IMG/VR virus record: IMGVR_UViG_3300044641_003078
Location: 1 to 31,093 of that record
Length of the DNA stretch: 31,093 nt
Reading direction: 5' to 3' (one strand)
Origin: a virus
A model generated the notes under the pieces. That model did no database searches. It saw only the letters and a program-made list of their open reading frames with translations, and was not told the DNA's origin. Positions 2 through 26,845 of this stretch are shown piece by piece. Each line of letters begins with the position of its first letter. Position 1 is the stretch's first letter. Both the position numbers and the translations under genes were made by a program.

Positions 2-1612
2 TTGAGTTTGCAAGGAAACAATGCACTATTTATTGATAAATCACAATCGGAGAGAAAGGATTTGTTGGCTCAATTTATGGGATTGGATATGTTCGATAAG
101 CTGTATGAAACGGCAACGAATGATATAAAGGATGTGAATGCACTTATCAGAAATTTCAAAAGGACCGACTTCACTTCGGAACTAGCCCAAAAAGAAACCG
201 ACTTGAGTGAGAAAAAAATTGAGTATGGTAACTTAGATAAAGAAAAATCTGAATTAGAAATCCGAAAGGGTGAGTTAGATGAACAAATTGTAGGATTATC
301 TCAACAAATAGTTCCAATTCAAGGTAACTTAGATATTGATGAATTAAATCGTAAGGTTAGAAAGATTGAGGGTGAATTAACAACTTGGGGAGATACTAAA
401 TTTGATAAAACCGAAAAACATACCGAAGCTAAAGAGTTAGTAAGAGAAGCTAAAGAAATGGTTGATTCTAAAGCTACTATAAACGAAATTGGTATAGAAG
501 TTGCATATTCAAATTATCAAAAAGAACAAAAGAATTTAATTGAAGCAGAAAAAGTTTATTCAACAGTAAAATCACAATTAAATTCTGCGGAAGAAAAGAT
601 TAACCATTTGGATAAACATGAATATGACCCAAATTGTAAATTTTGTTGTGATAATGAGTTTGTTAAAGATGCAATGCGAGCAAAAGAATCATTATCTGAA
701 TTACAAAGGCTTGTTCAAAATGCAACTATCCAATGTACAAGCATCCAACAAACTTTGGATTCTTGGGAAGGTGTAGAAGAACAATTCAAAGAATGGAAAC
801 ATTGGGCTGGTGAGTATAATAAATTAATTGTTGTTAGAGATAGATTAGAAGGTGAGATTAAAACAGCAGATAGTAAGATTGAACTATTACAACTTCAATT
901 GGAAAGTGTAAACGCAGATATTCAACGTTATAATGATAATGAAGAAACAATTATAAAGAATCAGGCATTAGATGTTCAAATTCAAAATGTTCGTAGATTG
1001 AAGCAAGGTGTGGAACTGCAAATATCCGATGTGAATAAACAAATGTTACGATTGATGTCTGAAGTAGGTGCAACAAAAACTTTTATAGATAATATGAAAG
1101 ATAAAATGGAAGAAGTAAAAGAATTGGAAACTAAAAACCAATTATACACATTCTATTTAGATGCAGTTAAGAAGGATGGCGTACCATACGAACTAATATC
1201 GAAAGCGCTTCCAGCAATTGAAAACGAAGTGAATAACATATTGGGACAAGTGGTGGATTTCTCAATTTCAATGGATACTGATGGAAAGAACATTAACGCT
1301 AGAATCGTTTATGAGGACCAGGAATGGGCTTTAGAGATGTGTAGTGGTATGGAGAAGTTCATTAGTGGATTAGCGATTAGAGTGGCTCTAATTAACATTT
1401 GTAACCTACCTAGACCTAACTTCTTAGTAATTGATGAAGGGTTCGGTACATTGGATGCAGATAACCTATCATCACTCTTTATGATGATGCAGTATCTTAA
1501 AACTCAATTCGATTTTATTTGGGTAATTTCTCACTTAGAACAAATGAGAGATATAGTAGATGGACTTATCGAAATCAAAAAAGTAGATGGGTTTAGTAAA
1601 ATTAATTTTTAA
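2..1612 (+). CDS. 46: Recombination endonuclease ATPase subunit gp46 (SMC/Rad50-like), 5'-partial
   Basis: This is the C-terminal part of the Rad50/SbcC-type ATPase that works with nuclease gp47 to resect DNA ends in phage recombination and recombination-dependent replication. The 536 visible residues begin near the Q-loop region; the Walker A motif lies upstream, outside the window. Long coiled-coil arms (about 60-210 and 225-390) flank a zinc hook CKFC at residues 212-215. The ATPase lobe follows: signature motif CSGME (447-451), Walker B FLVIDEG (474-480), D-loop FGTLD (481-485) and H-loop histidine 511. The signature is SGME rather than the usual SGGE, a small deviation. The gene ends just before a strong terminator and overlaps the end of a convergent small gene by 11 bases. 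Identification is from motifs seen; the T4 name is by family. The true start is not in this window. Confidence 0.93.
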   Translation: MSLQGNNALFIDKSQSERKDLLAQFMGLDMFDKLYETATNDIKDVNALIRNFKRTDFTSELAQKETDLSEKKIEYGNLDKEKSELEIRKGELDEQIVGLSQQIVPIQGNLDIDELNRKVRKIEGELTTWGDTKFDKTEKHTEAKELVREAKEMVDSKATINEIGIEVAYSNYQKEQKNLIEAEKVYSTVKSQLNSAEEKINHLDKHEYDPNCKFCCDNEFVKDAMRAKESLSELQRLVQNATIQCTSIQQTLDSWEGVEEQFKEWKHWAGEYNKLIVVRDRLEGEIKTADSKIELLQLQLESVNADIQRYNDNEETIIKNQALDVQIQNVRRLKQGVELQISDVNKQMLRLMSEVGATKTFIDNMKDKMEEVKELETKNQLYTFYLDAVKKDGVPYELISKALPAIENEVNNILGQVVDFSISMDTDGKNINARIVYEDQEWALEMCSGMEKFISGLAIRVALINICNLPRPNFLVIDEGFGTLDADNLSSLFMMMQYLKTQFDFIWVISHLEQMRDIVDGLIEIKKVDGFSKINF

Positions 1613-1775
1613 TAACCGGTAATACATTTTTAGGTGGAGTTTTCTTTGAAGACTCCACTTTTTCTTTTATAAGCGTTTCAATTAATCCGCTTATTTTATA
1701 TCCTTTCTCTTTACAAAATTCCTTTAATAATTGATGTACTTCGGCATCAATTTGTATCATAGCGTATTTTTTCAT
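1602..1775 (-). CDS. Small ribbon-helix-helix (Arc/CopG-type) DNA-binding protein
   Basis: A 57-residue reverse-strand gene, the only one in the window on this strand that I consider real. The protein reads MKKYAMIQIDAEVHQLLKEF, then a Gly-Tyr turn, then a second helix KISGLIETLIKEK and a Lys/Pro-rich tail. A short basic beta strand, helix, turn and helix is the ribbon-helix-helix pattern of Arc, MetJ and CopG, whose dimers bind operator DNA through the strand. It fills the 250-base gap between gp46 and the giant fibre, runs towards gp46, and its start lies 90 bases from the divergent fibre start, so it could bind the shared control region. That role is inference. Its C-terminal codons contain the terminator of the opposite strand. 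No clear Shine-Dalgarno sequence is seen; a TATAAT-like box lies upstream on the minus strand. Confidence 0.75.
   Translation of the reverse strand: MKKYAMIQIDAEVHQLLKEFCKEKGYKISGLIETLIKEKVESSKKTPPKNVLPVIKN
1634..1663 (+). terminator. Rho-independent terminator after gp46
   Basis: An 11-bp stem (GTGGAGTTTTC with GAAGACTCCAC, one G.T pair) closes a TTT loop at 1645-1647, with the 3' arm ending at 1658 and a T5 run then C then T4 following. The stem and T-tract point in the + direction, ending the gp46 transcript 22 bases after its stop codon. The hairpin sits entirely inside the reverse-strand ribbon-helix-helix gene. Confidence 0.85.
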
Positions 1776-1835
1776 AACATTCTTTAGTTTTCTTTAGAAT
1801 TCTAATATAATTATAAACATAAAAAATTTAAGCAA

Positions 1836-1843
1836 ATATTTAT
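1836..1843 (+). promoter_or_regulatory. Candidate phage promoter element ATAYTTAT before the giant fibre gene
   Basis: The 8-mer ATATTTAT ends 22 bases before the fibre ATG at 1866. The same word (ATATTTAT or ATACTTAT) stands before seven other + strand transcription units here. No -35-like box is evident. It is assigned as a phage promoter by recurrence and position only. Confidence 0.45.
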
Positions 1844-1865
1844 CATAGAATAATATAAGTACACT

Positions 1866-4800
1866 ATGGCAATAATAAAGAAATTTGCGGAAAACCTTAC
1901 CCAAAATTTAACCACATTTCAAACATATATAAAGGATACCACACCTAATTCTAGGTATTTTAGGATAACCGAATTTAAAGATACGTTTACTGGTGGTAAA
2001 AATGGATTCTTAATTGAAGGTTCTGAGCATTTAAAAGAAACAACTGAAATTAAAATTGAAATTTTAGATGTTGCTGGTAATCCGGTTTATTATGAACCTG
2101 GTAATGGTGTTCCTGAATATTATGAAGGAATTTCTAAAGTAATTGCGGTTTATATATATGAAGATACACCAATTGGTAATGCAAAAATTACTATATTAGG
2201 AGAATTAAAAACTTTTGTTGATGATAATGGTATAACTCAAGATATTCCAGAACAATGGAGAGATGTTTATAATGTTAAATGGGAGCGTGATTTTCAAATA
2301 AATAAATTATTATCAAATGAAGATAAAGTAAGATTCTATCGTAGACCTGAAGTATCGATAAATGAAATAGTAAAGCCCATATTTTCGAATGTAGTAACCC
2401 CAGTAGTTCAAATGGGATTTGTGGATGGTTTTGCACAAGTACCAGAAGTAGGTCAGACATTATCTGATTATTCACTCCCAACAAACTATTTATTACAAAT
2501 AAATGATGGGGGTGCTTGGACTGGTTCTGTTGTTGGAACTAGAATTGAACTTACTGATTTAGGATTATTTACTGAAGCGGATGATGTTATTAGTAAAACT
2601 GATTTAACTGTAAAAACACCATACGTTGCACCAAACCCATTAGGGTCTGCATTTCAAAATACAGTTCAAGACTTTTCAAATCAGAGATATACTGCATCAT
2701 TTAATTATGTTGAGGGAGTTGATAATTTAGCAACTGCATTGACTGGTTCTTTTGCAAAAATAACAATTTCTGATTTAGAAACTTTTGTTGGTGACGTAGC
2801 CAGAGTTAAAATTTATAGAAGGTCACAATCCGATTTAGCTGATTATCAATTTATACAAGAAATTCAATTAGAATCTAATGAATTATTAAAAGATTTAGAA
2901 TCAACTACTAAAAATGAAGAATTTTATGGTATATTTGACCCGTTTAATTTTAAAAATTATTGGATAACATCATCAAATGATTTAAGCACACAATTTAATC
3001 AAACGTTTTTATACAATTCAGTTAAGTTGGATGGTAATGCGGCAACCCCAACACAATTCTTTACATCTAAATCAATTGATTTAACAAAAGATTCCGAATA
3101 TACTTTAGATTTTAATGTAAGACTCTTACAAAACATATCGCCAGCTAATTATATTAAATTTTATATAAGTGGTTCTAGAACAAATAATAATATAACTTCT
3201 GGTGTATCACAAGAAATATTAACAATAACATCTGATAATAGTATTTTACAAAAATCAAATGTTACTGCAAATTTCAAATCACAGGAGTTTAACAATCCAA
3301 AACTTTATGTAGAAGTAAGAGGGTCTGGTTGGTATTTATCTGATATTAGTTTGAGAGCATCTCAAGAAACTTCATTTTCTCCAAATGAAATATCATTTAT
3401 ACAGCCAATTCCAAGAACATTACCAAAGGAAACATTTGAATTTTTATTTCAATTTTATGATATAAATAACAATTATATACCTGTAATTGTAACGGAAACA
3501 AAAACATTTGATGGTGGTAATCTGAATCGTATAAATAAAAGTATCGAATTAGTGCCATCATCTTTATATTTTCAATTTGATTCTGGCTCTGGTAATGGAA
3601 ATCCTGTAAATCCAACTACAATTTTTATAGATATTGTAAAAAACTTCCTAACAGGGTCTGTTACATTTACATCTCGTTCATTTGATTTTTTTAATACCGA
3701 ATTATCATCTTCAATGTATGATACTTCATATTGGGCTACAACTCCATTAAGTAGTTCGTTAGTATCACCACCATTTAACCATTGGCAATTTCCTGGTAAG
3801 TTGCTAGATATGGATAAAGATACGGTTAGATTGACTGTACAAAACTTTACAGGTTCAAGAGACCCGGGTTTAGAAGAAATTGTTGTACAATATATCGAAT
3901 ACACTGCCGAATGTGAAGGTGTTGAAGATTCTATTATAATAACAAGAGTAATTGATGGTAAGGGTGGTGTGAATTATGAGTTAAGACCTTATAATGGACA
4001 ATTTATAAGAAACTCTGACCCATCGGGTTCTTTAGAAGTTCAAGCAATTCGTATTGATGGTGTAAATGAAATTAAACTTAGAGCAGGATTGCCAGCTGGA
4101 AGGTCAGCACCTCAAATTCACGTACAATCTGGTTCGGCATATCTTACACTTAATGATGCGAGTCAAAGTGGATTCATAAAAGGGTTACAACCTGGTACAA
4201 CTGGTTCTGGTGAATTAAACTATAACGCAATTTTTAATAGAGATTCTATTGAAGGGCAATTGACATTATATCTAATACCTTCTGGTTCACCAACCCCGTC
4301 TGCATCGGTGTTGACTGTATTAACTCTCACCGATTTACAGGATGGTTTAGATGCTGGTGTTGTATTATATGATGCCGACACATTTACGATAAACCCAAGA
4401 ACAGAAACAAAGTTCAAACCTGTATTCTCATCAGCAACAGCATCATTTTTCCGTAGAGGTAGATTTGATGAACCAATAAGTTGTTCTATTGAAGTATATC
4501 CATCGATGTCAATCAATGTGGATTTTGTACCTGAATATTGGGTAAATTATATAACTCATAGTTGTAATCCTGATATTAGTGTTATAGCATACGATGAATT
4601 TGGAAATATAATACCATCAAGAGGAAACGCAGCAACTTATCCATTGGGATTGGCTGTATCTCAAAGTAAGCAATTACTAACAAGCTTTATTTATACCGAA
4701 CCTTGGACTTCGGCATCGGTATCGGTTGATAAATTATTTACAATAGTACCTGAAGGTAAGCCAGGTGATGAAAGTATTGTATTCGAAGTAACTCCATCAT

Positions 4801-7800
4801 CCGTAGCATTGGCAGCAAACTCAAGAGGTATTGTTAATGATTATAAACCAACGGTAACTGATATTAAATTAAAGCAAGGTTCTAGATATTTGGCATTTAC
4901 TGGAAGTAGAAAACCTGGTACATTTCATATAGCACAAAATTCTATAACAGCATCAAATATTACAGGTGGATTAGTTTACTTTGATAATGCATATACTGAA
5001 TCTTTAATTATTAGTGCATCTTCTGGATTTATTAATTTAAGTGGAAGTATTACATATCCATTAGAAATACAACCATACTACACATCATCAGTTTATACTG
5101 CTAGTGTGGTTCAGCAATATACAAAAGTATTGGAAGGGCCACCACCAATTCAAATCCTAATAACTCCACCAAACGTAACTTTAACGGCTGATGAAGTTGG
5201 ATTCGTAACACCGGTAGGATATGCACCCGCTAATACAACTTTACAGGTAAAAGAAGGTGATGACTTTTTAAGATTTACAACACAATCAAATTTGCCTGGT
5301 ACTTGGAGAATAAACTCAATTGAAACTAGAGGTGGTTCTGTGTGGAATATTAGAACAGGTTCATTATCATCCTCATCATTGAGTACGGCAACTATAAATT
5401 ATAATAGATTTGACTATCCATACGTTTCGGCAAGTGCATTATATACAATTCAAGTATATCCATTTGCATTAGGAAGCGGACATGAATACACATCATCTAT
5501 TTTTACTCGTACACAAACATTTACAAAAAATGTATCAGTACCAAATGCTCGTTCAGTCGATTTTAAGGCATCAACATATACAGTAAATTTTAATAGAGAT
5601 GGATATAAAACATCTCCTGATGGTAATATAGATTTAGTTGCAACGGCTTTTAATGTTACTGGTTCATCTGGTGAACTAGGACAAGTTGGACCTAATTTTT
5701 ACTTTTTCTTTTTAGAGGAAGATGGTAGTGAAACTTATTACGATGGACCTATACCAGAAACAACACCTGGTTCAAAAGAAGCATTTATTTCGATAGATGC
5801 ATCGGATGCAGTAGGACCTGGTCAAAATAAAACTTGGAAAGTAAAGATAACGGATGGTAAGGCACCATCTATTGGAAGTTTACTACCATCTGATATTAAA
5901 GCAGAAGGGCAATTAACAATTGCTGGTATTAAAGCTGGAGCGGATGCATATAAAATTGTTGGTACTAATGAAAACGCATCAATAAGTGGTGACCTTTGGG
6001 AAAAAAACTTAACAGGTACTGCAATAACATTGAATACTTTTAAGGGAGTAACTCAATTACAAAATGTAACAAATAGTATTGTAACAAATAATGGATACCC
6101 TGCTCCAATATTTCCAACTGATTATGATTATTTAGGTGAATTGATTGGTAATTTGGGATTTTCATCAGCATCTATACATTCTAAACCAAATTGGGTAACT
6201 CAAAGTATAAGTAGATTTACAACCACACCAGCAGCTGCACCAAATTTGTTAGACTGGAGAAAGTGGGCAGTTTCACAATCTGCTCAAATTGTTTACAAAG
6301 TAGATTTTGAAAATAATAGACAAACTCAATTTATAACACAATCGTTAGCAGTACAATTTGAACCACCTGCACCATATAATGTTTATATGCAGAATGATAA
6401 TTGTTCGGTGGTATATAGAGTTTCTGGTGAATTAGAATTTAACAATACTGGAAATACAATAAAAGCATCAAGAGGTAATGTACAACTTAGACATAGACCA
6501 AATGGATTTACTGGAGGACAGTGGGATGCGTATGATGAGTATGGTTATAAAGAACAATATGTAGTTTCAATACTTTCGTATTCAAGTCATTTAGGATTAC
6601 AACCTCCATATAATACACCAAATGCTAGACTGGGAGGTAATCAGGTAACGGCATCAATGCCACCTATAATATCTTGGAATGATCCTGAAAATAATCTTAC
6701 TGGTGAAATTGTTTATCAAATAGATTGTGAATATGTTTCCGGAAGTATTTCTAGACCCGGTACTACATTATTTAAAACACAATCATTATCAGTACAATTT
6801 GAAGGAGCAGTAGGGCCTGGTATTGTTATGAGGGGTGAATGGAGTACGGAAACGGATTACATAGGACAAGTAGAGAATACAAATAATCGTAGAGATGCAG
6901 TTATTTATAATGCGACTCCGGGAGCTACAAACTATTACGCATCAGTTAGTGGTTCTGGGCCAAATACTTATGTAAATCCATTAACATCTACATTTTATGT
7001 TGGGGGTTCTCCACCTTCTGGATTTAATTTAATTGGGGCAAAACAACCAGATACACAACCTGATTTTTGGGAATTTTTAGGACAAGAAGAATTCTTTGTT
7101 GCGGCTAAGATTGCAATATTCGAAGAATCGTATGTTAAGAATACAATCAATGTTGGTACTAAAAACGGAACTGGAGCATTTGCAAATATTGTAATAGCGG
7201 GTGGTAGAACTGACCCGTATATTGCTATTGGACAGAATGCAACAATTGGTACATCGGGTGGAAGCGGTACAACATTAAATCCTGGTGGTGCTGTTATTGG
7301 TTATGAAAGACCTGGTATTTTCTTAGGTATTTATGAACAAGGGGCAGCGGGTACAACTGGAAGATTTTCAATTATGAACACCGCTGGTAACCGATTCCTT
7401 AAATGGGATGGAAGTAGTTTACAAATTGCCGGAGATATTACTGTAACCGGTGGAGATGCTGCAACTCAAAATTTTGCAAATACGGCTGCATCAAATGCTC
7501 AAGCTGCAGCAATAGCAACTGCAGGAACTAATGCACAAACTGCAATTGATTTGTTTGGAGATTCATTGGGTGCAATGGCAGCAATTGATGCAATTAATGC
7601 TGGAACATCTGCTCTTACATATATTGGGCCCGGTGCAATTGTAACATCACGTGTAGCCACAAATTTAATTACTTCTACTAATTATGCATATACGGCGGGT
7701 AATTTCTCAGATGCAGGTACATTTATAGATTTAGCAAGTAGTACAATCAGAACTCAAGGATTTTCGGTTAATGCTGCCGGCAACGCATTTTTCAGAGGAG

Positions 7801-9434
7801 ATATATCAGCGGCTACCGGAAACTTTGCTGGAAACGTAGTTGTAGGTGGTTTTATTCGTTCATCTGGCGCAACTGGATTGGATGCTGGAACTTCAGGATT
7901 CTATATGGCAAATGATGGACAATTCCGTTTTGGAAATACAATAGCATCCGGACTTCCTTCGATAAATTGGGATAACAACACCTTAAGTATTAAAGGTAAA
8001 ATACAAACTGATAATAGTTTAGTATCTGAAATTGGTAACTGGCGAGTGGTTGAAGGTAACTTCCAAGACCAAGACGCATCAATTGTATTAAACGCAAACT
8101 CAAAAGTTATATCTATAAGTGAAACTGGTACACAAAGAGTTATTATTAAACAGGGTACTATTTCTACTCCTGGTAGTGGAGGTACTGGTGTAACAATAGA
8201 CCCAATATCTAGTTTTGGTTTTACCGGAGAGCAATTGGGAATGGGGTATTACAACTATACTAATATTGGGCAGTTATTTGATTCAACGGGATTTTCCGTT
8301 TCAGCTGAAGGATTATACACAACAACTGGTAATTTAGATTGGGGTTCTAATAATAGTTTAACAGTAGAATCGGATTTTAATTTTGATGGTAGTATAACTG
8401 TAGAAGTTATTGGTGAAATTTGGACAACTGATGATTTATCAGGAACACAAATAAATAGTATTGTATTAGCTAATGGTGGTGTATATTCTGGAGGATATGA
8501 GGCATATATTAATTTTAATGATGGATTTCAAAGTTCTCTTTATTTTGCAGAAGCTGGTACATATTATATGCATATAAAAGTGGTTGTTGAAGGATATATT
8601 GCCGATGGTCTAATTGAATTCCAAGGAAGTTTAAATCCACAAGCTCAAACATTTAATCGTTCATTACAACAAACTGAAATTGGTCAAGATGGTATATTAG
8701 TTGTTGCTAATGCGGATAACTATGTAAAGGTTCAAAGAACAACATCGGACCCGATGATTGATATAAAGACTAGTAATACTGGTCCCGGATTAAGAATTAC
8801 AAATACGAATGCAAGCGGTAAATCAATTCAAGTATTAGATGGTGATATTTTACTATCCGGAACTGGAAATAACTTAATGGTAAACGGTGGATTTATTGGA
8901 ACTGAAAATGTTGCTGCTGGAATTCGTATGGGTACTAATGGTACTGAATCAGTACTTATAGGTGCTAACTTCCCTGCACAAGGTTCACCATCTAGAACTG
9001 CCAGATTAAGACCGGGTACACCAAAATTTGGAATCAGTACGGGTCGTGAATTAATATCAGATTCATCTACAATTAGAATAAAGAAAGATATAGAAGATTA
9101 TCCTACTTCCGCGTATGAAAGTATTAGACGTATTAAACCTGTTTTATTTACCCCATTAGCTTCAGTTGATAGTGATGAGGAAGAAGATTATTCTCAAAAC
9201 TATCCATTAATGGAAAATGCAAAAGAATATGTTGGTAAACAAGGAGGATTTATTGCAGAATGGTTGGATAAGGATCCTGAATTACGAAGATTTTGTAATT
9301 ATGGTGTAAGTGGAAGTGTATCTGTTTTAGAATCCGTATCGTATGATAGAATTGTAGTACCTTTAACTAAAACTGTTCAAATTTTGATGGATAAAGTTGA
9401 AGCCTTAGAAGCGTATATTAGTGGTTCATTGTAA
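1866..9434 (+). CDS. Giant tail fibre/adhesin with C-terminal S74 intramolecular chaperone
   Basis: A 2522-residue, Ser/Thr/Gly/Asn-rich, beta-dominated structural protein, about twice the length of T4 gp34. Its N-terminal region (about 1-400) looks globular and probably contacts the virion. At least five tandem beta-domains of about 130 residues begin near residues 697, 826, 963, 1090 and 1226; two related segments carry TQSLAVQFE and TQSLSVQFE near 1491 and 1641. An Ala-rich helical stretch (about 1858-1925) precedes Gly-rich strands with motifs such as GNAFFRGDIS, typical of trimeric fibre shafts. The C-terminus is a peptidase S74 chaperone: STIRIK at 2401-2406 matches the Ser-x4-Lys dyad of the family, followed by a conserved C-terminal helix. 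By family knowledge this domain trimerises the fibre and cuts itself off, releasing about 120 residues. Role in host recognition is inferred. The downstream oxygenase and sugar genes could modify it. Confidence 0.85.
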   Translation: MAIIKKFAENLTQNLTTFQTYIKDTTPNSRYFRITEFKDTFTGGKNGFLIEGSEHLKETTEIKIEILDVAGNPVYYEPGNGVPEYYEGISKVIAVYIYEDTPIGNAKITILGELKTFVDDNGITQDIPEQWRDVYNVKWERDFQINKLLSNEDKVRFYRRPEVSINEIVKPIFSNVVTPVVQMGFVDGFAQVPEVGQTLSDYSLPTNYLLQINDGGAWTGSVVGTRIELTDLGLFTEADDVISKTDLTVKTPYVAPNPLGSAFQNTVQDFSNQRYTASFNYVEGVDNLATALTGSFAKITISDLETFVGDVARVKIYRRSQSDLADYQFIQEIQLESNELLKDLESTTKNEEFYGIFDPFNFKNYWITSSNDLSTQFNQTFLYNSVKLDGNAATPTQFFTSKSIDLTKDSEYTLDFNVRLLQNISPANYIKFYISGSRTNNNITSGVSQEILTITSDNSILQKSNVTANFKSQEFNNPKLYVEVRGSGWYLSDISLRASQETSFSPNEISFIQPIPRTLPKETFEFLFQFYDINNNYIPVIVTETKTFDGGNLNRINKSIELVPSSLYFQFDSGSGNGNPVNPTTIFIDIVKNFLTGSVTFTSRSFDFFNTELSSSMYDTSYWATTPLSSSLVSPPFNHWQFPGKLLDMDKDTVRLTVQNFTGSRDPGLEEIVVQYIEYTAECEGVEDSIIITRVIDGKGGVNYELRPYNGQFIRNSDPSGSLEVQAIRIDGVNEIKLRAGLPAGRSAPQIHVQSGSAYLTLNDASQSGFIKGLQPGTTGSGELNYNAIFNRDSIEGQLTLYLIPSGSPTPSASVLTVLTLTDLQDGLDAGVVLYDADTFTINPRTETKFKPVFSSATASFFRRGRFDEPISCSIEVYPSMSINVDFVPEYWVNYITHSCNPDISVIAYDEFGNIIPSRGNAATYPLGLAVSQSKQLLTSFIYTEPWTSASVSVDKLFTIVPEGKPGDESIVFEVTPSSVALAANSRGIVNDYKPTVTDIKLKQGSRYLAFTGSRKPGTFHIAQNSITASNITGGLVYFDNAYTESLIISASSGFINLSGSITYPLEIQPYYTSSVYTASVVQQYTKVLEGPPPIQILITPPNVTLTADEVGFVTPVGYAPANTTLQVKEGDDFLRFTTQSNLPGTWRINSIETRGGSVWNIRTGSLSSSSLSTATINYNRFDYPYVSASALYTIQVYPFALGSGHEYTSSIFTRTQTFTKNVSVPNARSVDFKASTYTVNFNRDGYKTSPDGNIDLVATAFNVTGSSGELGQVGPNFYFFFLEEDGSETYYDGPIPETTPGSKEAFISIDASDAVGPGQNKTWKVKITDGKAPSIGSLLPSDIKAEGQLTIAGIKAGADAYKIVGTNENASISGDLWEKNLTGTAITLNTFKGVTQLQNVTNSIVTNNGYPAPIFPTDYDYLGELIGNLGFSSASIHSKPNWVTQSISRFTTTPAAAPNLLDWRKWAVSQSAQIVYKVDFENNRQTQFITQSLAVQFEPPAPYNVYMQNDNCSVVYRVSGELEFNNTGNTIKASRGNVQLRHRPNGFTGGQWDAYDEYGYKEQYVVSILSYSSHLGLQPPYNTPNARLGGNQVTASMPPIISWNDPENNLTGEIVYQIDCEYVSGSISRPGTTLFKTQSLSVQFEGAVGPGIVMRGEWSTETDYIGQVENTNNRRDAVIYNATPGATNYYASVSGSGPNTYVNPLTSTFYVGGSPPSGFNLIGAKQPDTQPDFWEFLGQEEFFVAAKIAIFEESYVKNTINVGTKNGTGAFANIVIAGGRTDPYIAIGQNATIGTSGGSGTTLNPGGAVIGYERPGIFLGIYEQGAAGTTGRFSIMNTAGNRFLKWDGSSLQIAGDITVTGGDAATQNFANTAASNAQAAAIATAGTNAQTAIDLFGDSLGAMAAIDAINAGTSALTYIGPGAIVTSRVATNLITSTNYAYTAGNFSDAGTFIDLASSTIRTQGFSVNAAGNAFFRGDISAATGNFAGNVVVGGFIRSSGATGLDAGTSGFYMANDGQFRFGNTIASGLPSINWDNNTLSIKGKIQTDNSLVSEIGNWRVVEGNFQDQDASIVLNANSKVISISETGTQRVIIKQGTISTPGSGGTGVTIDPISSFGFTGEQLGMGYYNYTNIGQLFDSTGFSVSAEGLYTTTGNLDWGSNNSLTVESDFNFDGSITVEVIGEIWTTDDLSGTQINSIVLANGGVYSGGYEAYINFNDGFQSSLYFAEAGTYYMHIKVVVEGYIADGLIEFQGSLNPQAQTFNRSLQQTEIGQDGILVVANADNYVKVQRTTSDPMIDIKTSNTGPGLRITNTNASGKSIQVLDGDILLSGTGNNLMVNGGFIGTENVAAGIRMGTNGTESVLIGANFPAQGSPSRTARLRPGTPKFGISTGRELISDSSTIRIKKDIEDYPTSAYESIRRIKPVLFTPLASVDSDEEEDYSQNYPLMENAKEYVGKQGGFIAEWLDKDPELRRFCNYGVSGSVSVLESVSYDRIVVPLTKTVQILMDKVEALEAYISGSL

Positions 9435-9478: not shown

Positions 9479-10075
9479 ATGGCACAAAAATTAAGTATAA
9501 TTACAATTGATGATTTTTACTCAAATCCGTTTGATGTAAGAAAATTTGCATTAAATCAAAACTTTGATATTGAGGGTAACTTTCCTGGATATAGAACTAA
9601 ATCTTTTTTAAACGATACAATTAAGGAAGCTATTCAATATGTTATATCTCCGTATGCTGGTGAAATTACCGATTGGAATGATGGAGAGGATTCAAGTTGT
9701 GGTTCATTTCAATATACAACTGAAGAACATCATTCATGGATTCATTCCGATGGTGGGTTTAAATGGGCGGGTGTTTTATATTTAACACCAAATGCACCAC
9801 CATCTGCTGGAACTGGATTTTATAGGCATAAACAAACATCGATTGATAGATTTGTACATGAAACTGATGTACCAACTGAAAAAGATTTGAATCACCCATA
9901 TTTGAGAGATTATAAAGATATGACAAAATGGGAATTGACTGATGTAATATCAAACAAATTTAATAGATTGATTTTATACGATGCATCAATGTTTCATAAA
10001 TCGATGGATTACTTTGGTAAAAATAAAATATCTGGAAGACTTTTTCAAGTTTTCTTTTTCAATACAAACAATTAA
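9479..10075 (+). CDS. 2OG-Fe(II) oxygenase-like protein (DUF6445-like)
   Basis: A 198-residue protein with the layout of a 2-oxoglutarate/Fe(II) dioxygenase double-stranded beta-helix. The iron-binding triad can be proposed as H89-x-D91 in WIHSDG and H173 in MFHKSMDYFG, with R187 in GRLFQVFFF as the likely 2-oxoglutarate-binding arginine. The intervening segment WAGVLYLTPNAPPSAGTGFY (residues 96-115) is typical of a family of phage and bacterial proteins related to prolyl-hydroxylase-like enzymes. The family assignment comes from these motifs; the substrate is unknown. Its position directly after the giant fibre and before a sugar operon suggests protein (fibre) hydroxylation or a step in glycan modification, which is inference. 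It starts with ATG after an A-rich leader without a Shine-Dalgarno sequence. Confidence 0.72.
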   Translation: MAQKLSIITIDDFYSNPFDVRKFALNQNFDIEGNFPGYRTKSFLNDTIKEAIQYVISPYAGEITDWNDGEDSSCGSFQYTTEEHHSWIHSDGGFKWAGVLYLTPNAPPSAGTGFYRHKQTSIDRFVHETDVPTEKDLNHPYLRDYKDMTKWELTDVISNKFNRLILYDASMFHKSMDYFGKNKISGRLFQVFFFNTNN

Positions 10076-10377: not shown

Positions 10378-12555
10378 ATGGCAAAGAAAAAGTTACTTTA
10401 TGTCTGCCCGCATCTTTCAACGGGAGGACAACCACAATACACATACAAGCAAATAAAACACTTTATAAATGACTTTGAAATAGAAGTTGTTGAAATAAAT
10501 AATAGTGGTGGTGATGCTTATGTAGTTCAAAAAAATAGAATTAAATCATTAGCAATTGTTCATACATTGGGTAGTGATAAATCTGAAATTTTAAATGTAA
10601 TTAAGGAATTTAAACCTGATATTATACATTTTCAAGAAATACCTGAATTTGATTTGGCAACTAATATATTGGATGATATATTCGTTGAACATAGGGATTA
10701 TTTTATAATAGCAACAACACATGGTTCTTTTACAAATCCAAACGAAATACAATACCAACCAGACAAATATGTTTTAGTTTCTGAATGGAGTAAGAAAAAA
10801 TTTGAAGAAGCTAATTTAGGAGTTGATTTGGATATATGGGAATATCCAATTGAAGAATATACTTTTGATAAAGAAGCTGCACAAAAACAATTGGGATTAG
10901 ACCCAACTTGGAAGCACGTACTTAATGTTGGTTTATTTTCACCTGGCAAAAACCAAGCTGAAATATTTCAGATAGCAAGGCAGTTGGAAAAATACAAAGT
11001 AAAATTTCACTTTGTAGGAAATCAAGCTATGAACTATGAAGATTATTGGAAACCACTTATGCAATATAAGCCCGATAATTGTATCGTATGGGGTGAGAGA
11101 GATGATGTAGATACGTTCTATTCTGCATGTGATTTGTTTTACTTTTCATCTAAATTAGAATTAAATCCATTATCAGTCAAGGAAGCACTTTCATATAAGA
11201 TGCCATCGTTATTCCGAAAGTTGCACACTTATTTAGATACCTACGATACAAACGAATTGGTTAGTTATATTGATGATGATTTAAAACTAACTAAACGAAT
11301 TATATTAGAAAAATTACAACCCGAATTCAATGAAATACCTGGTTGGTTTTCTTATACTGATTTGTACGATGAGTTGGTTGAAAAAGTACCTGAAAATGCA
11401 AATGTAGTTGAAGTTGGGGCTTGGTTTGGGAAATCCACAAACTATTTAGCAACTAAAATAAGAGAATCTGATAAGAAAATAAATTTTACAACCATTGATA
11501 CTTTTAAAGGAACTGATGATGAGGAATTGCATCAAACAATAGTAAATAGTTTTACTGGTGATATATTCTATGAATTTATAGATAATACCACATTATCAAA
11601 AAACTATGGTACATTTAATATAATAAAAGATACATCAAAAAACGCAGCAAACCAATTTACAAATTCCAGTATAGATTTCATAATGTTAGATGCTGGGCAT
11701 TCATACGAAGCTCTTATGGATGATTTGAAAGTTTGGTATAATAAAGTTAAACCAGGCGGATATATAACAGGCGATGATTATGGTGTATTTGAAGGAGTTA
11801 CTAGAGCATCAAACGAATATTTTTATGGTCAGATTAATAGAGGCAATCGTTCATTTATTCGTAAGAAACCACGTATTCAAATAAAGCATTTATTGACTAG
11901 GCCTGATGATATGAGGGAAATGGTTAGTATTCAATCTATTAAGCAATTAGAAAAGTATGGAATGATATATCAACCAATTGTTAATGAAGTATATGAAGGA
12001 TTAGCACCTGCTGATAATTGTAGAAGACCTGAACATATAAGTAAAGATAATAAGCCAGGTGAATTATATCCTGGTGCTGGTTTGGGTTGGATGACTGGTA
12101 GGCATTATGGATGTTATTTGGCACATAGAGGGGCATTGGAAACGATAGATACGCAAAACTTTGATTACACTTTAATATTTGAAGCAGATGCATTTATTTA
12201 CACTGGGTTGGAAGAATTTGTAGAAATTGTACATAGAGCTTGTTTTATTTCAGAACTACATGATGTGTATTATATATCATTGGCGGATAATCCATCAAGA
12301 GGTAAAGAAAAAATAGATGAACTATTTTCAAAAACAGCATTTAATCAAGACCTAGCACATGCTTATCTAATACCAAACCGAACGAAGGAATGGTGGTTAG
12401 ATAGAATAAAAGATTGTGGCTGGGATGTGGGTGACCTTTGGTTCAATCATGTATTCTATAATCACCCCAAACCAAGATACACAACAAACAAAGTGTATAG
12501 TAAACAAGCAGAAGGATTTTCCCTATTGGATTTAACAGTTAAAACTTGGAGTTAA
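10378..12555 (+). CDS. Three-domain GT4 glycosyltransferase - SAM methyltransferase - GT25-like glycosyltransferase
   Basis: A 725-residue fusion. Residues 1-310 look like a GT-B, GT4-type glycosyltransferase: early STGGQPQYTY loop, a nucleotide-sugar-binding half starting near 178 (VLNVGLFSPGKN), and an E-x7-E motif ELNPLSVKE at 261-269. Residues 320-485 are a class I SAM methyltransferase of the Methyltransf_24 type: VVEVGAWFGKST (343-354) is motif I, MLDAGHSYEALMDDL (436-450) and PGGYITGDDY (459-468) follow. Residues 500-725 resemble GT25 (LPS glycosyltransferase) with GCYLAHRGALE (578-588) and LIFEADAFI (599-607) in place of the usual LILEDDV; the EAD variant keeps one acidic pair. It opens the operon; its TAA overlaps the next ATG by one base. 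It probably builds and methylates a short glycan, on protein or polysaccharide; donor sugars cannot be told from sequence. Confidence 0.8.
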   Translation: MAKKKLLYVCPHLSTGGQPQYTYKQIKHFINDFEIEVVEINNSGGDAYVVQKNRIKSLAIVHTLGSDKSEILNVIKEFKPDIIHFQEIPEFDLATNILDDIFVEHRDYFIIATTHGSFTNPNEIQYQPDKYVLVSEWSKKKFEEANLGVDLDIWEYPIEEYTFDKEAAQKQLGLDPTWKHVLNVGLFSPGKNQAEIFQIARQLEKYKVKFHFVGNQAMNYEDYWKPLMQYKPDNCIVWGERDDVDTFYSACDLFYFSSKLELNPLSVKEALSYKMPSLFRKLHTYLDTYDTNELVSYIDDDLKLTKRIILEKLQPEFNEIPGWFSYTDLYDELVEKVPENANVVEVGAWFGKSTNYLATKIRESDKKINFTTIDTFKGTDDEELHQTIVNSFTGDIFYEFIDNTTLSKNYGTFNIIKDTSKNAANQFTNSSIDFIMLDAGHSYEALMDDLKVWYNKVKPGGYITGDDYGVFEGVTRASNEYFYGQINRGNRSFIRKKPRIQIKHLLTRPDDMREMVSIQSIKQLEKYGMIYQPIVNEVYEGLAPADNCRRPEHISKDNKPGELYPGAGLGWMTGRHYGCYLAHRGALETIDTQNFDYTLIFEADAFIYTGLEEFVEIVHRACFISELHDVYYISLADNPSRGKEKIDELFSKTAFNQDLAHAYLIPNRTKEWWLDRIKDCGWDVGDLWFNHVFYNHPKPRYTTNKVYSKQAEGFSLLDLTVKTWS

Positions 12556-13700
12556 TGATATACGATAATTTGGTAAAAAATAAAAATAATAAAATTGATA
12601 TAGAAAACAAAGTTCATTATCACTTTGTAAAAGGACCTTTTGTTGAAATTAAAGGACAAAAAAAGGCAGAATATATTGTTGAATTTATAGATAGAAAAGA
12701 TAATAAAGTTTTATTTAAATCAACAATAGGAAATAATTGTTGGTGTAAATGTAGCATAGAATATTTTGTAGATTGGAAAATTGTAATTTATGAAAATGGA
12801 AAACGTTGGGCAGAATATAATTACGAAGCAGAAGGTAAAAAAGTTTATATAGCATTGGATTCTAGAGCATTGGGAGATACATTAGCTTGGTTTCCATATT
12901 TGGAAGAATTTAGAAAAAAACATAATTGTAAATTAGTTGCATCAACCTTTATGAATGATTTCTTTTCCAATGAATATACAAATATAGAATTTATAAAACC
13001 GGGTGATACTGCGGGTGGATTATATGCTATGTATTGTATTGGATTATTCTATAATGAAGATGATTCTATAAACTTATTTAAAAATCCAATTGACCCAAAA
13101 AAAGTAACACTTCAAAAAATGTGTTCTGATATATTGGGATTGGAGTATAAAGAAATAAAACCAAAATTACAAAGAAAAAATCCTCCTTTGGAAAAAATAA
13201 AACAAGTATGTATTGGAGTATTCGGAACAGCTCAATCTAAATTTTGGAATAATCCAACCGGTTGGCAAGATGTAGTAGATTGGTTAAACAATAAAGGATA
13301 TACGGTAAAATTAGTATCAAAAGAAGGTGATGATTATATGGGTAACAAATTACCAAAAGGAATTATACATCACCCAAACGGACCTATTGAATTGGTGATG
13401 GATGAATTAAAAAAATCAAAAGCATTTATTGGTATTGGTAGTGGTTTAAGTTGGTTAAGTTGGTCTTTGGATGTACCTACTGTATTAGTGAGTGGATTTT
13501 CCTATGATTGGGCGGAGATGCAAGATTGTATCAGAATTACTGCACCAAAAGGAAAATGTGAGGGTTGTTTTAATAGGCTACGATTAAATGCTGGTGATTG
13601 GAATTGGTGTCCTGACCATAAAGGTACTGAAAGACAATTTGAATGTACTAAAAGTATTACATCTGAAATGGTAATTAAAGAATTGGAGAAGTTTTTATAA
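12555..13700 (+). CDS. BAHT-type protein O-heptosyltransferase (autotransporter heptosyltransferase family)
   Basis: A 381-residue GT9-like enzyme of the bacterial autotransporter heptosyltransferase (BAHT: AAH, TibC) family, which moves heptose from ADP-heptose to serine on beta-helical adhesins. Seen: an N-terminal beta-rich domain (1-90), then ALDSRALGDTLAW with the putative catalytic Asp108, FWNNPTGWQDVVDWL near 230, GIGSGLSWLSWSLDVP near 293-308, and four cysteines C335, C338, C352 and C364 in the spacing CxxC-x13-C-x11-C, matching the iron-finger of TibC. I chose the ATG at 12555, which overlaps the preceding TAA, over an in-frame TTG three codons upstream. The gene also couples to the next through TAATG. 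The downstream heptose-activation genes strongly support ADP-heptose as donor. The substrate in this phage is inferred; the giant fibre is the best candidate. Confidence 0.85.
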   Translation: MIYDNLVKNKNNKIDIENKVHYHFVKGPFVEIKGQKKAEYIVEFIDRKDNKVLFKSTIGNNCWCKCSIEYFVDWKIVIYENGKRWAEYNYEAEGKKVYIALDSRALGDTLAWFPYLEEFRKKHNCKLVASTFMNDFFSNEYTNIEFIKPGDTAGGLYAMYCIGLFYNEDDSINLFKNPIDPKKVTLQKMCSDILGLEYKEIKPKLQRKNPPLEKIKQVCIGVFGTAQSKFWNNPTGWQDVVDWLNNKGYTVKLVSKEGDDYMGNKLPKGIIHHPNGPIELVMDELKKSKAFIGIGSGLSWLSWSLDVPTVLVSGFSYDWAEMQDCIRITAPKGKCEGCFNRLRLNAGDWNWCPDHKGTERQFECTKSITSEMVIKELEKFL

Positions 13701-14086
13701 TGAAAAAGGTTTGGATAAATGGGTGCTTTGATGTTCTACATTATGGACATTTTAAGTTGATAGATTACGCAAAATCTTTAGGAGATTTAATGATAGGTAT
13801 TGATTCTGATGAACGAATTAAAAAGATGAAAGGCGAGGGTAGACCGTTTCACACAGAAGGACAAAGAGTATTTAATTTATTACAAATAGAGGGCGTAGAT
13901 AAGATTGTAGTGTTTGATAGTGATGATTCTTTAAGAAAACATTTACAAGAATATGAACCTGATATATTTGTAATTGGTGATGAGTATATGTACAAACCTA
14001 TCATTGGTGGGGAGTATGCAAAAGAAATAAAATTCTTTGGTAAATTAGAAGGATTTAGTACTACAAAACTTTTAGATGATGAGTAA
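13700..14086 (+). CDS. Heptose-1-phosphate adenylyltransferase (HldE C-terminal-domain type)
   Basis: A 128-residue nucleotidyltransferase. It has NGCFDVLHYGH with the HxGH motif at 14-17, GRPFHTEGQR at 47-56, EPDIFVIGDEY at 86-96 and the signature FSTTKL at 119-124 (ISTTxI in the family). Glycerol-3-phosphate cytidylyltransferase TagD and the heptose enzyme HldE-C share these motifs, so sequence alone is not decisive. The neighbouring heptose kinase and heptosyltransferase make D-glycero-beta-D-manno-heptose-1-phosphate adenylyltransferase, giving ADP-heptose, the better call. It is a stand-alone domain where many bacteria have a fused HldE. Its start overlaps the preceding stop (TAATG), and its end overlaps the kinase gene by 8-11 bases. 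Confidence 0.8.
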   Translation: MKKVWINGCFDVLHYGHFKLIDYAKSLGDLMIGIDSDERIKKMKGEGRPFHTEGQRVFNLLQIEGVDKIVVFDSDDSLRKHLQEYEPDIFVIGDEYMYKPIIGGEYAKEIKFFGKLEGFSTTKLLDDE

Positions 14087-14819
14087 AGTATTAGTTATAG
14101 GAGAAAGTTGCACGGATATTTTTATATACGGAACATCAGAAAGAAAATCTCCAGAGGGAAGGGGCCCTGTATTTATTCCAAAATATGAAAAGTATGGAGT
14201 TGGTATGGCAGCTAATACAACAAATAATCTAGCAGCTATGGGTGTTGATGTTGATATGTTTTCCGATAACGATAACATAATAAAAACTCGTTATGTTAAT
14301 GAAGATACAAATGAATTGTATTTAAGAGTAGATGAAAACGATTCGGTTAATAGAATCAATATTGATGATTTGCCTGATTTGAAACAATACTCAGCAATTA
14401 TAATATCTGATTATTGTAAAGGATTTTTAGAAGAAGAAGATATTGCTAAAATAGCATCTATGCACCATTTAGTTATTGCTGATACCAAAAAGAAATTGGG
14501 AGATTGGTGTGTGGATTTAAAATTCATCAAAGTAAACCGATTGGAGTGGGCAAATAGTAAGGATATTATACGAGATAATGAGTGGTTATTTGATAAAATT
14601 ATATGTACCCTTGATAAAAAAGGAACAACATATAGACATACCACATATCCAGTTATTCCAATAGAAAATGCAGACGTGAGTGGAGCAGGTGATACCTTTG
14701 TAGCAGGATTTGTATCAAAATATTTAGATTCTAATAATGTTGATGAATCTATTATGTGGGGAAATTATTGTGCTGGTGAAGTTGTGAAAGAAAAAGGAGT
14801 TTCTGTGTTCAAAATTTAA
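14079..14819 (+). CDS. PfkB-family heptose-7-phosphate kinase (HldE N-terminal-domain type)
   Basis: A 246-residue PfkB/ribokinase-fold kinase. It opens with VLVIGESCTDIFIYG, has GVGMAANTTNNLAAMG (the GGAAN region of HldE), then TRYVNEDTNELYLRVDEND matching the HldE pattern of an Arg-rich strand followed by a bound-sugar Asp, IISDYCKGFL (SDYAKG in HldE), FIKVNRLEW (the NxxE motif) and DVSGAGDTF with the catalytic aspartate of GAGD. The predicted reaction is phosphorylation of D-glycero-D-manno-heptose-7-phosphate at O-1. Bacterial HldE kinase domains are about 310-320 residues, so this version is compact by about 70 residues, mainly between the N-terminal lid and GAGD. Two in-frame ATGs (14076 and 14079) overlap the previous gene; I list the second. 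It is the last gene of the operon; no terminator is visible behind it. Confidence 0.82.
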   Translation: MSKVLVIGESCTDIFIYGTSERKSPEGRGPVFIPKYEKYGVGMAANTTNNLAAMGVDVDMFSDNDNIIKTRYVNEDTNELYLRVDENDSVNRINIDDLPDLKQYSAIIISDYCKGFLEEEDIAKIASMHHLVIADTKKKLGDWCVDLKFIKVNRLEWANSKDIIRDNEWLFDKIICTLDKKGTTYRHTTYPVIPIENADVSGAGDTFVAGFVSKYLDSNNVDESIMWGNYCAGEVVKEKGVSVFKI

Positions 14820-15287: not shown

Positions 15288-17972
15288 ATGAAAGGATTAG
15301 CAAAATTTTTGGTTGAAACAATATTGGGAGAAGCGGCTCAAATGGACAAAGTAGTTGTTGTCTATTCGGGCCGCTTTCAACCATTTCATAAGGGTCACTA
15401 CGCAACGTATGACCATTTGGTTAAAAAATTCGGAAAAGATAATGTTTATATAGGAACTTCCGATGTAACCGATAATAAAAAATCTCCATTTGGGTTTAAA
15501 GAAAAGAAGGCAATAATGATGAAGATGTTTGGTATCTCATCAAATAAAATTGTACAAATTAAAAACCCATACGCTCCACAAGAAATACTTAATAAATTTG
15601 ATTCAGATACTACTGGTTTTATAACTGTGGTAGGTGAAAAGGATTCCTCACGTTTAAGTGGTAAATACTTCACGCCATATAAAGGTAAGATAGAACAAGG
15701 GTATTTAGATAAAGGATATGTCTATGCAGCACCTGCACAACCAAATGCAATTAGTGGTACTGATGTTCGTTATTGGTTAAGTGCTGGTAATGAAGAAGAA
15801 AGAAAGAAAAACTTTATAAAAGCATATCCAAAGTTTGATGACCAAATTTTCAAAATGATTACTCTTAAGTTGAAAAAACTAAAAGAATATATCAATGAAG
15901 AAATTAAATTAAATGTAAAGGTTGGAGATACTTTACTAATGGGCAAATTCAAAAACAAAAAAGTAATTGTTAAAAATATAGGAAGTGATGAGTGGGGAAT
16001 GCCAACAATTAATGGTAAGAAAGCAGTAACATTTCGAATTCCTAAAAAAGAAGAATTAAAAGAAGCAGCATCTAATGCAGGATTTACTGGAGGAGATGAA
16101 CCTGATACATCATTTGTGGCAGATGGACAACCAAGAATATTAAATACGGCCAAACCAGAAGGTTGGTATAAGCAAGGTGGATATATCCAACTTGATATTC
16201 CAAAAGCAGATGCTATGAGGGGTAAAGGTAAATCAAAAGATACGGAAACTCAATTTAGAAAAGCTTATTATAAATTAAAGAATGTAGTTCAAAGTACACT
16301 AAATCCGGCAGATGACCCACATAGTGTTGAAGATTGGCAAGAAACTGATAGAAGTAAACCATTGGAAAAACCTAAAAGATTTTGGGAACTTCCTAAAAAT
16401 CAAAAACCACAAATAATTTCAAAAGAAGATATAAAAGAAATAGTTGAAGATTTTGATAATTTAATAGATGAGATGGGACTTGGTGGCGGAGCAGGTGTAG
16501 GATTATCTTTACCAGGTGGATATATTAATGGAGCACCAAATCCAAAAGATGCTAAGAAATTAAAATCTAAATTAGATGGTGATGGTAGTGAAGAATATAC
16601 TCCAGTAAAAGAGGGATTAAAAGATTTAGAGAAAGAACTTGTAGTACTATATAATAAGGCTTTTAAACTGATGCCAAAATCTCCTGCACAAATGAAAGTT
16701 AGAGCAGAGATTGATAAAATTAAAAAACAAATAGATTCACTAAAGAAGGAATCAATAAACGAATCTCTATTATTAGAAGGTGGGGCTTATGGTCACATGA
16801 ATCATCCGTTTGATATTGAAATGAATCTTACCTTTGGTGATTTAAAACAAATTGTAACAAAGGCTCTTAATGGTGATTTAGAATTAACCAGAGAGAAGAC
16901 TGATGGACAAGCATTGGCAGTTAGTTGGGTAAATGGTAGATTAGTTGCAGCACGTAACAAATCACATCTAAAAAGCAAAGGAGCTGGCGCTATGACAATA
17001 GGACAGGTAGCCGATAAGTTTGCTGGTAGGGGTGGTTTAACTGATGCTTACAACTTCGCTATGCAGGATTTATCTAAAGCAATAGCAGCTCTATCCGAAC
17101 CACAAAGAAAAAAGATTTTTAAGGATGGTGCATGTTTTATGAATTTGGAAGTAATATACCCAACATCAGTAAACGTAATTCCATATAACCAACCTCTATT
17201 AGTATTTCATGGTACATTTGAATATGATGATGCTGGTAATATAATTGGAGAGAACCAACAAGCCGCAAGTATATTAGGTGGAATGATTAAGCAAGTAAAT
17301 GCGCATGTACAATCTAAGTACACAATACAAGGACCACCAATGACTAAGTTACCCAAATCAGAACAACTAACCAAATTGCAAGGAAAGTATTTAGGAATGA
17401 TTTCAAAACTACAATCAGAATTTGGATTATCTGATAATGATGGTGTAGGTGAATATCATCAGGCTTGGTGGAGTAAGTTTGTAGAAAAGGGTGGAAAGAA
17501 ATTAGATGCACAAGAAAAAATAGGATTAGTAAAGAGATGGGCATTCGGTGATAAATCATTCCGTATCAATACAATACAAGACCCTAAATTAAGAGCTTGG
17601 GCTGAACAAATAGATAAGCAAGACCAACAAAAAATATCAAAACAAAATCTAATGAGATTTGAGGAGATATTCTTAGGAGTTGGTGCTGATGTATTATCAT
17701 TTATGAGTTCGGTACTTACGGCAAATCCAGAATCAGCAAAAAGACAGATGGTAGCTCGTTTAGAATCTACAATTCAACAAGTAAAAGCAAGTGGTGACCC
17801 TAAAAAGATTGAAAAACTTAAATTAGAACTACAACGTTTAAACGCATTGGGTGGATTTGATAAAATTGTACCAAATGAAGGTATTGTATTTGTATATAGT
17901 GGTAACACTTACAAATTAACAGGTGCATTCGCACCCCTAAATCAAATTTTAGGTATTTTCTTCGATAGTTAA
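15288..17972 (+). CDS. Fusion of NMNAT-like adenylyltransferase and nucleic-acid-ligase-like domain
   Basis: An 894-residue protein. Residues 20-195 form a nucleotidyltransferase domain of the NMN-adenylyltransferase kind: VVVYSGRFQPFHKGH with HxGH at 34-37 and SGTDVR (156-161) in place of ISSTxIR. A linker with a small basic beta segment (205-255), low-complexity and charged helices follows. Residues 495-894 hold motifs in the order of the covalent nucleotidyltransferase (ligase/capping) superfamily: EKTDG with K537 as candidate AMP-accepting lysine, RLVAARNKSH (551-560), MNLEV (618-622) as a motif III-like acidic strand, NEGIVF (863-868) as motif IV and TYKLTG (874-879) as motif V. The N-terminal call is firm; the ligase-like call rests on motif order and is moderate. 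It might act in NAD or RNA/DNA end metabolism, or be a packaged enzyme, since the N-terminus ILGE could be cut by the prohead protease. Confidence 0.72.
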   Translation: MKGLAKFLVETILGEAAQMDKVVVVYSGRFQPFHKGHYATYDHLVKKFGKDNVYIGTSDVTDNKKSPFGFKEKKAIMMKMFGISSNKIVQIKNPYAPQEILNKFDSDTTGFITVVGEKDSSRLSGKYFTPYKGKIEQGYLDKGYVYAAPAQPNAISGTDVRYWLSAGNEEERKKNFIKAYPKFDDQIFKMITLKLKKLKEYINEEIKLNVKVGDTLLMGKFKNKKVIVKNIGSDEWGMPTINGKKAVTFRIPKKEELKEAASNAGFTGGDEPDTSFVADGQPRILNTAKPEGWYKQGGYIQLDIPKADAMRGKGKSKDTETQFRKAYYKLKNVVQSTLNPADDPHSVEDWQETDRSKPLEKPKRFWELPKNQKPQIISKEDIKEIVEDFDNLIDEMGLGGGAGVGLSLPGGYINGAPNPKDAKKLKSKLDGDGSEEYTPVKEGLKDLEKELVVLYNKAFKLMPKSPAQMKVRAEIDKIKKQIDSLKKESINESLLLEGGAYGHMNHPFDIEMNLTFGDLKQIVTKALNGDLELTREKTDGQALAVSWVNGRLVAARNKSHLKSKGAGAMTIGQVADKFAGRGGLTDAYNFAMQDLSKAIAALSEPQRKKIFKDGACFMNLEVIYPTSVNVIPYNQPLLVFHGTFEYDDAGNIIGENQQAASILGGMIKQVNAHVQSKYTIQGPPMTKLPKSEQLTKLQGKYLGMISKLQSEFGLSDNDGVGEYHQAWWSKFVEKGGKKLDAQEKIGLVKRWAFGDKSFRINTIQDPKLRAWAEQIDKQDQQKISKQNLMRFEEIFLGVGADVLSFMSSVLTANPESAKRQMVARLESTIQQVKASGDPKKIEKLKLELQRLNALGGFDKIVPNEGIVFVYSGNTYKLTGAFAPLNQILGIFFDS

Positions 17973-26777: not shown

Positions 26778-26806
26778 AAGATAAAAAAATAAAATATTTT
26801 TTGATG

Positions 26807-26832
26807 AAAGCTTGGTTATTCCAAGCTTTTTT
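26807..26832 (+). terminator. Terminator hairpin overlapping the methyltransferase promoter
   Basis: A 9-bp perfect stem AAAGCTTGG (26807-26815) and CCAAGCTTT (26821-26829) with loop TTATT and a T run to 26832. It ends the gp21 unit. The TTG of the following promoter's -33 box (26812-26814) lies inside the stem, and the 3' arm fills the promoter spacer. Confidence 0.82.
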
Positions 26833-26842
26833 CGTATATTTG
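26812..26842 (+). promoter_or_regulatory. Bacteroidetes-type promoter of the DNA methyltransferase gene
   Basis: TTG at 26812-26814, a 20-base spacer and TATATTTG at 26835-26842 match the Bacteroidetes -33/-7 consensus. The ATG at 26846 is only 3 bases beyond the -7 box, so the mRNA should be leaderless or nearly so. The core TTCGTATATTTGT is identical to that at 10360. Confidence 0.72.
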
Positions 26843-26845
26843 TGT

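Follow-up and report, generated by a model that had tools for sequence, protein, structure and literature searches.

The locus described here raises the question of what a BAHT-type protein O-heptosyltransferase is doing in the genome of a phage. BAHT enzymes have been described as tools of Gram-negative pathogens, in which they act on autotransporter adhesins. No phage BAHTs were found in the literature we searched (which is not proof of absence), and a role for the family in decorating virion tail proteins is not described there either. The gene lies in the 31-kb IMG/VR virus record IMGVR_UViG_3300044641_003078, from a freshwater virus of bacteria, all 31,093 nucleotides of which were analysed and are referred to below as the window. 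This has a T4-like gene set (SbcC-like, giant fibre, terminase, portal, head protease and Gp23 capsid protein), and the gene string of interest (positions 10378–14819) sits between the fibre and packaging genes. The explanation we prefer, with moderate confidence, is that the string is a phage-encoded module for the O-glycosylation of a virion protein, for which we infer the donor, the acceptor, the order of steps and the benefit to the phage.

The first gene of the string (10378–12555, plus strand, as are all those described in this and the next sentence) encodes a three-domain fusion of an N-terminal GT4-type glycosyltransferase, a TylF/Methyltransf_24-type methyltransferase in the middle and a weak GT25-like domain at the C-terminus. 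Then come the BAHT gene (12555–13700, 381 amino acids), assigned by profile, fold and active-site residues, a gene for an HldC-like sugar-1-phosphate nucleotidyltransferase (13700–14086, 128 amino acids), for which TIGR02199 is the best model, and one for an HldA-like PfkB kinase (14076–14819, 247 amino acids), for which TIGR02198 is the best model and which was also assigned by profile, fold and motifs. Pfam models found in the fusion were Glycos_transf_1 (1.4e-10), Methyltransf_24 (2.4e-17) and TylF (4.7e-8), and the GT25 model matched the C-terminal domains of 8/10 of its relatives (best 8e-5), with the window's own domain below the cut-off. The BAHT gene starts with the ATG at 12555, which overlaps the TAA stop of the preceding gene (12553–12555) as TAATG (the alternative longer start, TTG 12546, is mechanical), and the BAHT/nucleotidyltransferase junction is also TAATG (13698–13702), while the kinase starts at 14076, 11 bases inside the nucleotidyltransferase gene. 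These three overlaps make translational coupling likely, and the stop-start-coupled genes listed in the initial annotation proved to be real open reading frames at the positions given there, with the TAATG junctions in place.

The gene order fusion–BAHT–(HldC)–(HldK) is kept in about 80 viral contigs, which indicates that the arrangement has not arisen by chance, and the GT4/methyltransferase/GT25-like fusion adjoins BAHT in 79/82 loci. A homologue of the accessory DUF6445 / phrog_1644 'minor coat protein' encoded upstream (9479–10075, plus strand; assigned by Pfam and PHROG) occurs in 3/82 loci only, the window counted. We also note that this protein has an HxD...H pattern as in 2-oxoglutarate/Fe(II) dioxygenases, and that window positions 15288–17972 encode an 894-amino acid protein with an N-terminal cytidylyltransferase-like domain, syntenic throughout the window's clade, whose C-terminal half has a KTDGQ stretch that recalls a nucleic-acid ligase.

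The assignment of the 12555–13700 protein to the BAHT enzymes is firm in both sequence family and fold. Against the TIGR04414 profile, a check the initial annotation had proposed together with a structural comparison to TibC, it scored 274.5 bits (1.3e-81; curated cut-off 200), and the profile was also matched by 49/49 members of set A2. TibC is its sole strong match by sequence among solved structures (4e-55), and the AlphaFold2 model (pLDDT 92), which has an N-terminal β-barrel and a GT-B-like catalytic domain, superimposes on TibC with a TM of 0.85 (E 4e-33). LPS heptosyltransferase models reach no more than 22 bits (22 for the LPS heptosyltransferase I model) and the fold of WaaC is far less similar (TM 0.43–0.54), and on these grounds we rejected an identity as an LPS heptosyltransferase.

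In TibC, Asp110 acts as the catalytic base, Thr226 and Lys230 bind phosphate, Trp305 binds the heptose, Arg286 contacts N1 of the adenine and four cysteines bind iron; replacement of Arg286 by alanine abolished or largely diminished activity (Yao et al. 2014, PMC4358343). The window enzyme aligns D111, T228, K232 and W303 (numbered from TTG 12546) with Asp110, Thr226, Lys230 and Trp305, and these residues and the four cysteines are conserved in 50/50 clusters of the window's clade. The iron-finger cysteines (C338, C341, C355 and C367 in the same numbering) have exactly the CxxC-x13-C-x11-C spacing claimed earlier and are found in nearly every other relative as well. The enzyme thus resembles TibC and AAH (TIGR04414; PMC4358343) in its fold, β-barrel, iron finger, catalytic Asp and Thr/Lys/Trp donor-site residues, and the initial BAHT family call was borne out by sequence, fold and active site. 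Unlike TibC and AAH, it has Val (V284) at the Arg286 position and Gly at position 300, it is phage-encoded beside tail genes without an autotransporter partner, and its relatives are often fused to a GT4 or methyltransferase domain and are at times accompanied by HldC/HldK genes. At the tip of the β-hairpin thumb, where TibC has the two hydrophobic residues F265-V266, the alignment places Y264-M265.

A sequence set drawn from five viral scans, one bacterial scan and phage records gave 178 clusters at 90% identity, and the tree, from which one long-branched sequence (L171) was excluded, had three parts: the autotransporter clade, which contains TibC and whose 37 rows are all bacterial; the window's clade, made up of 50 exclusively viral clusters; and a third group of 91 other clusters, mainly viral along with Methylobacter, Polaromonas and a small number of metagenome-assembled bacteria. 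As the tree was rooted at the midpoint only, we claim that these groups are separate and do not name an ancestral one. Judged from the tree, the window's BAHT is outside the autotransporter clade. The Arg286 position is R in 35/36 autotransporter-clade clusters, V in 50/50 of the window's clade and V/T/L/I/A in 83/91 other clusters, and the stereoselectivity position (Pro300 in TibC, Ser294 in AAH) is Gly in 50/50 clusters of the window's clade versus Ser in 31/36 of the autotransporter clade. Many of the third group are longer proteins (690–1300 amino acids) fused to GT4 or methyltransferase domains, and the cultured Microcystis phage Mel-JY01 has GT4, methyltransferase-like and BAHT domains in one 1226-amino acid protein annotated as 'methyltransferase FkbM'.

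The name of TIGR04414 and the way in which TibC and AAH work (PMC4358343) could suggest that the window encodes a true autotransporter heptosyltransferase, one taken over from a host that continues to modify β-helical strand-loop-strand proteins. We consider this very improbable, as the tree members of the autotransporter clade are bacterial in 37/37 cases and the strand-loop-strand repeats (TIGR04415), found in 12/12 autotransporter-clade genomes, are present in 0/9 genomes of phage-like relatives and gave no match in the window's fibre (1866–9434; the window's own genome is incomplete). An acceptor of the autotransporter type was ruled out for the window's clade by this absence, and with two tested features of the autotransporter clade lacking (Arg286 and a TIGR04415 partner) the enzyme, though BAHT-like in its working, should be classed apart from the autotransporter heptosyltransferases. 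The analogy with β-helical acceptors drawn in the initial annotation was accordingly not supported, as relatives adjoin genes with Gly-Ser/Thr-rich collagen-like repeats instead.

These Gly-Ser/Thr-Ser/Thr (GSS) repeats were scored where a gene had at least 10 consecutive Gly-X-Y triplets rich in Ser/Thr within the fetched locus (10 kb), for loci with a flank of at least 8 kb. Such a gene lies near BAHT in 60/81 clusters of the third group (a few loci with two BAHT copies each enter this count twice) versus 0/30 of the autotransporter clade. The clearest examples come from bacteria: within genomes of 9.2, 6.1 and 2.3 Mb, a six-repeat pattern was matched on the BAHT contig only, some 0.1–5 kb from BAHT. 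Such phages might simply tend to carry GSS genes, which would account for the association; a single weak match was obtained in 1/8 phages in which no BAHT was detected, though this control is small. Within the window's own clade a collagen-like repeat is nearby in 3/48 clusters only, and no GSS-repeat gene was found in the window. Among the long contigs of BAHT carriers, mostly of the window's clade, 6/11 have GSS repeats elsewhere, and on one contig of 136 kb (G001) they lie some 40 kb from BAHT, in giant proteins that are tail-like; one short match was all that came from 15 contigs of the same clade, none longer than 63 kb.

The fibre-like protein of the window (1866–9434, plus strand, 2522 amino acids) is a candidate acceptor by its synteny upstream of BAHT. 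It matched no family in Pfam, NCBIfam or PHROG, its Gly-X-Y stretches are very short (the longest run is 4 triplets), GTSG stretches, likewise short, occur at these sites in some sister phages, and a homologue is found upstream of BAHT in those window-clade loci with enough flank. Since the fibre is adjoining and syntenic and GSS repeats occur elsewhere in long contigs, we regard the fibre as one candidate acceptor and a GSS-repeat tail protein encoded beyond the window as another. Two further types of repetitive sequence were seen in relatives: Mel-JY01 (L082, PP395634.1) has at positions 2–3052 a frame of about 1016 amino acids rich in GSSGTSGTRGTSG repeats, over most of which the record annotates ORFs on the other strand, and two relatives of the window have poly-threonine mucin-like proteins (TTTTTTEAPTTTTTT) upstream of BAHT (L030:211–900 and L061:4287–5654).

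The virion is also implicated by the position of BAHT near structural genes in unrelated phages, and this part of the initial annotation stood. In the window's clade these are the fibre, TerL and portal genes; the BAHT of Mel-JY01 likewise adjoins virion structural genes, and that of the 735-kb phage LR756501 is beside a GSS-repeat tail-like gene and a baseplate J-like gene. Some of the phage-like 'bacterial' contigs appear to be phage themselves: L091, assigned to a bacterial metagenome-assembled genome, has baseplate, terminase and PhoH-like genes and is apparently phage DNA that was binned there, and L097 may be alike. It is improbable, in our view, that the target of the module is a protein or surface glycan of the host instead of the virion (to block superinfection, for example): phage glycosyltransferases that alter host surfaces are known (also noted in PMC12619734), and the kinase relatives of marine cyanophages lie inside large sugar-gene clusters, but BAHT has late structural genes around it in phages that are unrelated to one another, has the fold of the protein-modifying TibC and not of the LPS-type WaaC, and has GSS-repeat genes nearby in relatives. 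Least probable of all is that these are sugar genes for DNA hypermodification (glycosylated bases). DNA modification is frequent among phage glycosyltransferases (PMC12619734) and the window has a DNA methyltransferase-like gene (26801–28168), but the BAHT fold and iron finger suit protein acceptors and no gene for base hydroxymethylation was seen in the window.

The donor may be considered from the two downstream genes, in which the HxGH, FSTTKL and PfkB motifs noted initially are present. The nucleotidyltransferase scored 95 bits with TIGR02199, below the cut-off of 181.5, and 51 bits with the glycerol-3-phosphate cytidylyltransferase model, which makes the latter activity the less likely of the two. 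TIGR02199 is also the top family among 31 relatives, while the best solved matches are cytidylyltransferases, and the protein appears closest to HldC, though not decisively so. The kinase scored 95.5 bits with TIGR02198, below the cut-off of 345 and yet its best-scoring family. Its profile best matched the heptose-7-phosphate kinase HldA among PDB entries (3e-19) and its predicted fold is also closest to HldA among PfkB kinases (2e-17, with the next at 1.4e-12). It has the motifs SPEG-x-GPV and GAGD, with the exact SPEAPVPV in some relatives. The pair therefore resembles HldE, or HldA plus HldC, in best models, fold matches and motifs (SPE...PV, GAGD, HxGH and STT), in agreement with the HldE-like nature first proposed, but differs in being two separate short genes, far under the curated cut-offs and with neither GmhA nor GmhB alongside.

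The supply genes form an optional cassette. Among the 50 clusters of the window's clade, HldC occurs with HldK in 16 and on its own in 8, and both are missing from 26; the pair is immediately 3' of BAHT in the 16 and just downstream of it in ten clusters from elsewhere in the tree. On a tree of 60, at least 8 changes in the presence of HldC and at least 7 in that of HldK are needed, and close relatives of the window have a different HldC type, from which we conclude that the cassette is exchanged or lost and that the transferase is independent of it. A search for gmhA and gmhB, as initially advised, found no GmhA in 50 same-clade records; in 31 long records there were two clear cases, from near-identical jumbo phages, and one weak one, and GmhB was found in 0/31. 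GmhA was rejected as part of the module, being absent from those 50 records and clear in one jumbo-phage lineage only, and both heptose-7-phosphate and the phosphatase step (the latter taken from the known ADP-heptose pathway) would then be supplied by the host.

ADP-heptose is the probable donor as far as these comparisons go, and the initial proposal of this sugar was upheld in part: supply genes are recurrently linked to BAHT, but both enzymes score under the cut-offs, Val stands in place of Arg286 and the supply genes are missing from half of the clade. That the virion protein is glycosylated from a different nucleotide sugar, with a changed donor pocket and an HldC-like enzyme that charges another sugar-1-phosphate, is unlikely but the most serious of the alternatives. 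It is favoured by the substitutions at Arg286 and position 300 across the window's clade (V 50/50, G 50/50) and by a nucleotidyltransferase that falls under the HldC cut-off with cytidylyltransferases as its best solved matches; it is disfavoured by a linked kinase nearest HldA in profile and fold, with SPEAPVPV intact in some relatives, by the conservation of Lys230 and Trp305 (phosphate and heptose contacts), and by TIGR02199 topping the models for the nucleotidyltransferase.

We therefore return to virion-protein O-glycosylation as the likely role. The BAHT-like enzyme would move heptose from an activated donor, most likely ADP-heptose, to Ser/Thr of a tail structural protein, which may be the giant fibre immediately upstream and/or a GSS collagen-like tail protein elsewhere in the genome, and the GT4/methyltransferase/GT25-like neighbour would probably extend and methylate the first sugar. 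HldK and HldC would boost donor supply from host heptose-7-phosphate, and phages without them would draw on the host donor pool. The remark on ALPK1 in the initial annotation gained no support from this analysis. Counting against this are the lack of a GSS gene in the window, the Val at Arg286, supply enzymes under cut-offs and the 26/50 clusters without supply genes. A broader proposal, which we put forward tentatively and hold to be somewhat short of an even chance, is that a large phage-centred BAHT-fold subfamily, with the adenine-contacting Arg lost and a swappable HldC/HldK cassette, hyper-O-heptosylates GSS collagen-like tail proteins to give mucin-like fibres, with the same pairing in a few free-living bacteria.

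Known phage systems share parts of this arrangement. The cassettes of marine T4-like cyanophages (P-SSM2, S-SM2 and P-TIM68) have a homologous kinase (34–41% identity) beside nucleotidyltransferases, but these phages are without BAHT (E ≤ 1e-5) and have a gene annotated as phosphoheptose isomerase. In P-SSM2 (L399, 5610–10247) some 2 kb separates the kinase/nucleotidyltransferase/phosphoheptose isomerase cassette from a tail-fibre-like gene; a dioxygenase gene lies in this interval, and there is no BAHT. Capsid and tail proteins of mycobacteriophages also bear glycans (Freeman et al. 2023, as cited in PMC12619734), though involvement of BAHT-type enzymes or heptose is not described there.

The biology of the family would be broadened by hundreds of viral contigs that share the BAHT fold and form a clade of their own, in which the donor site is altered and the acceptor is probably another one. 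Our reading would also offer a role for the GSS-repeat tail proteins found in large phages and predicts which residue change sets the two clades apart; it can be put to a direct test in Mel-JY01, a cultured phage. Finally, some large phages have a second, short BAHT-like paralogue of 308–321 amino acids (L255:7055–7987, and on the minus strand L359:7823–8749, L368:2602–3567 and L386:6798–7736, with others similar). Seven clusters of this group carry Asn, Arg and His in place of Thr226, Lys230 and Trp305, a change that points to a different donor or lost activity.
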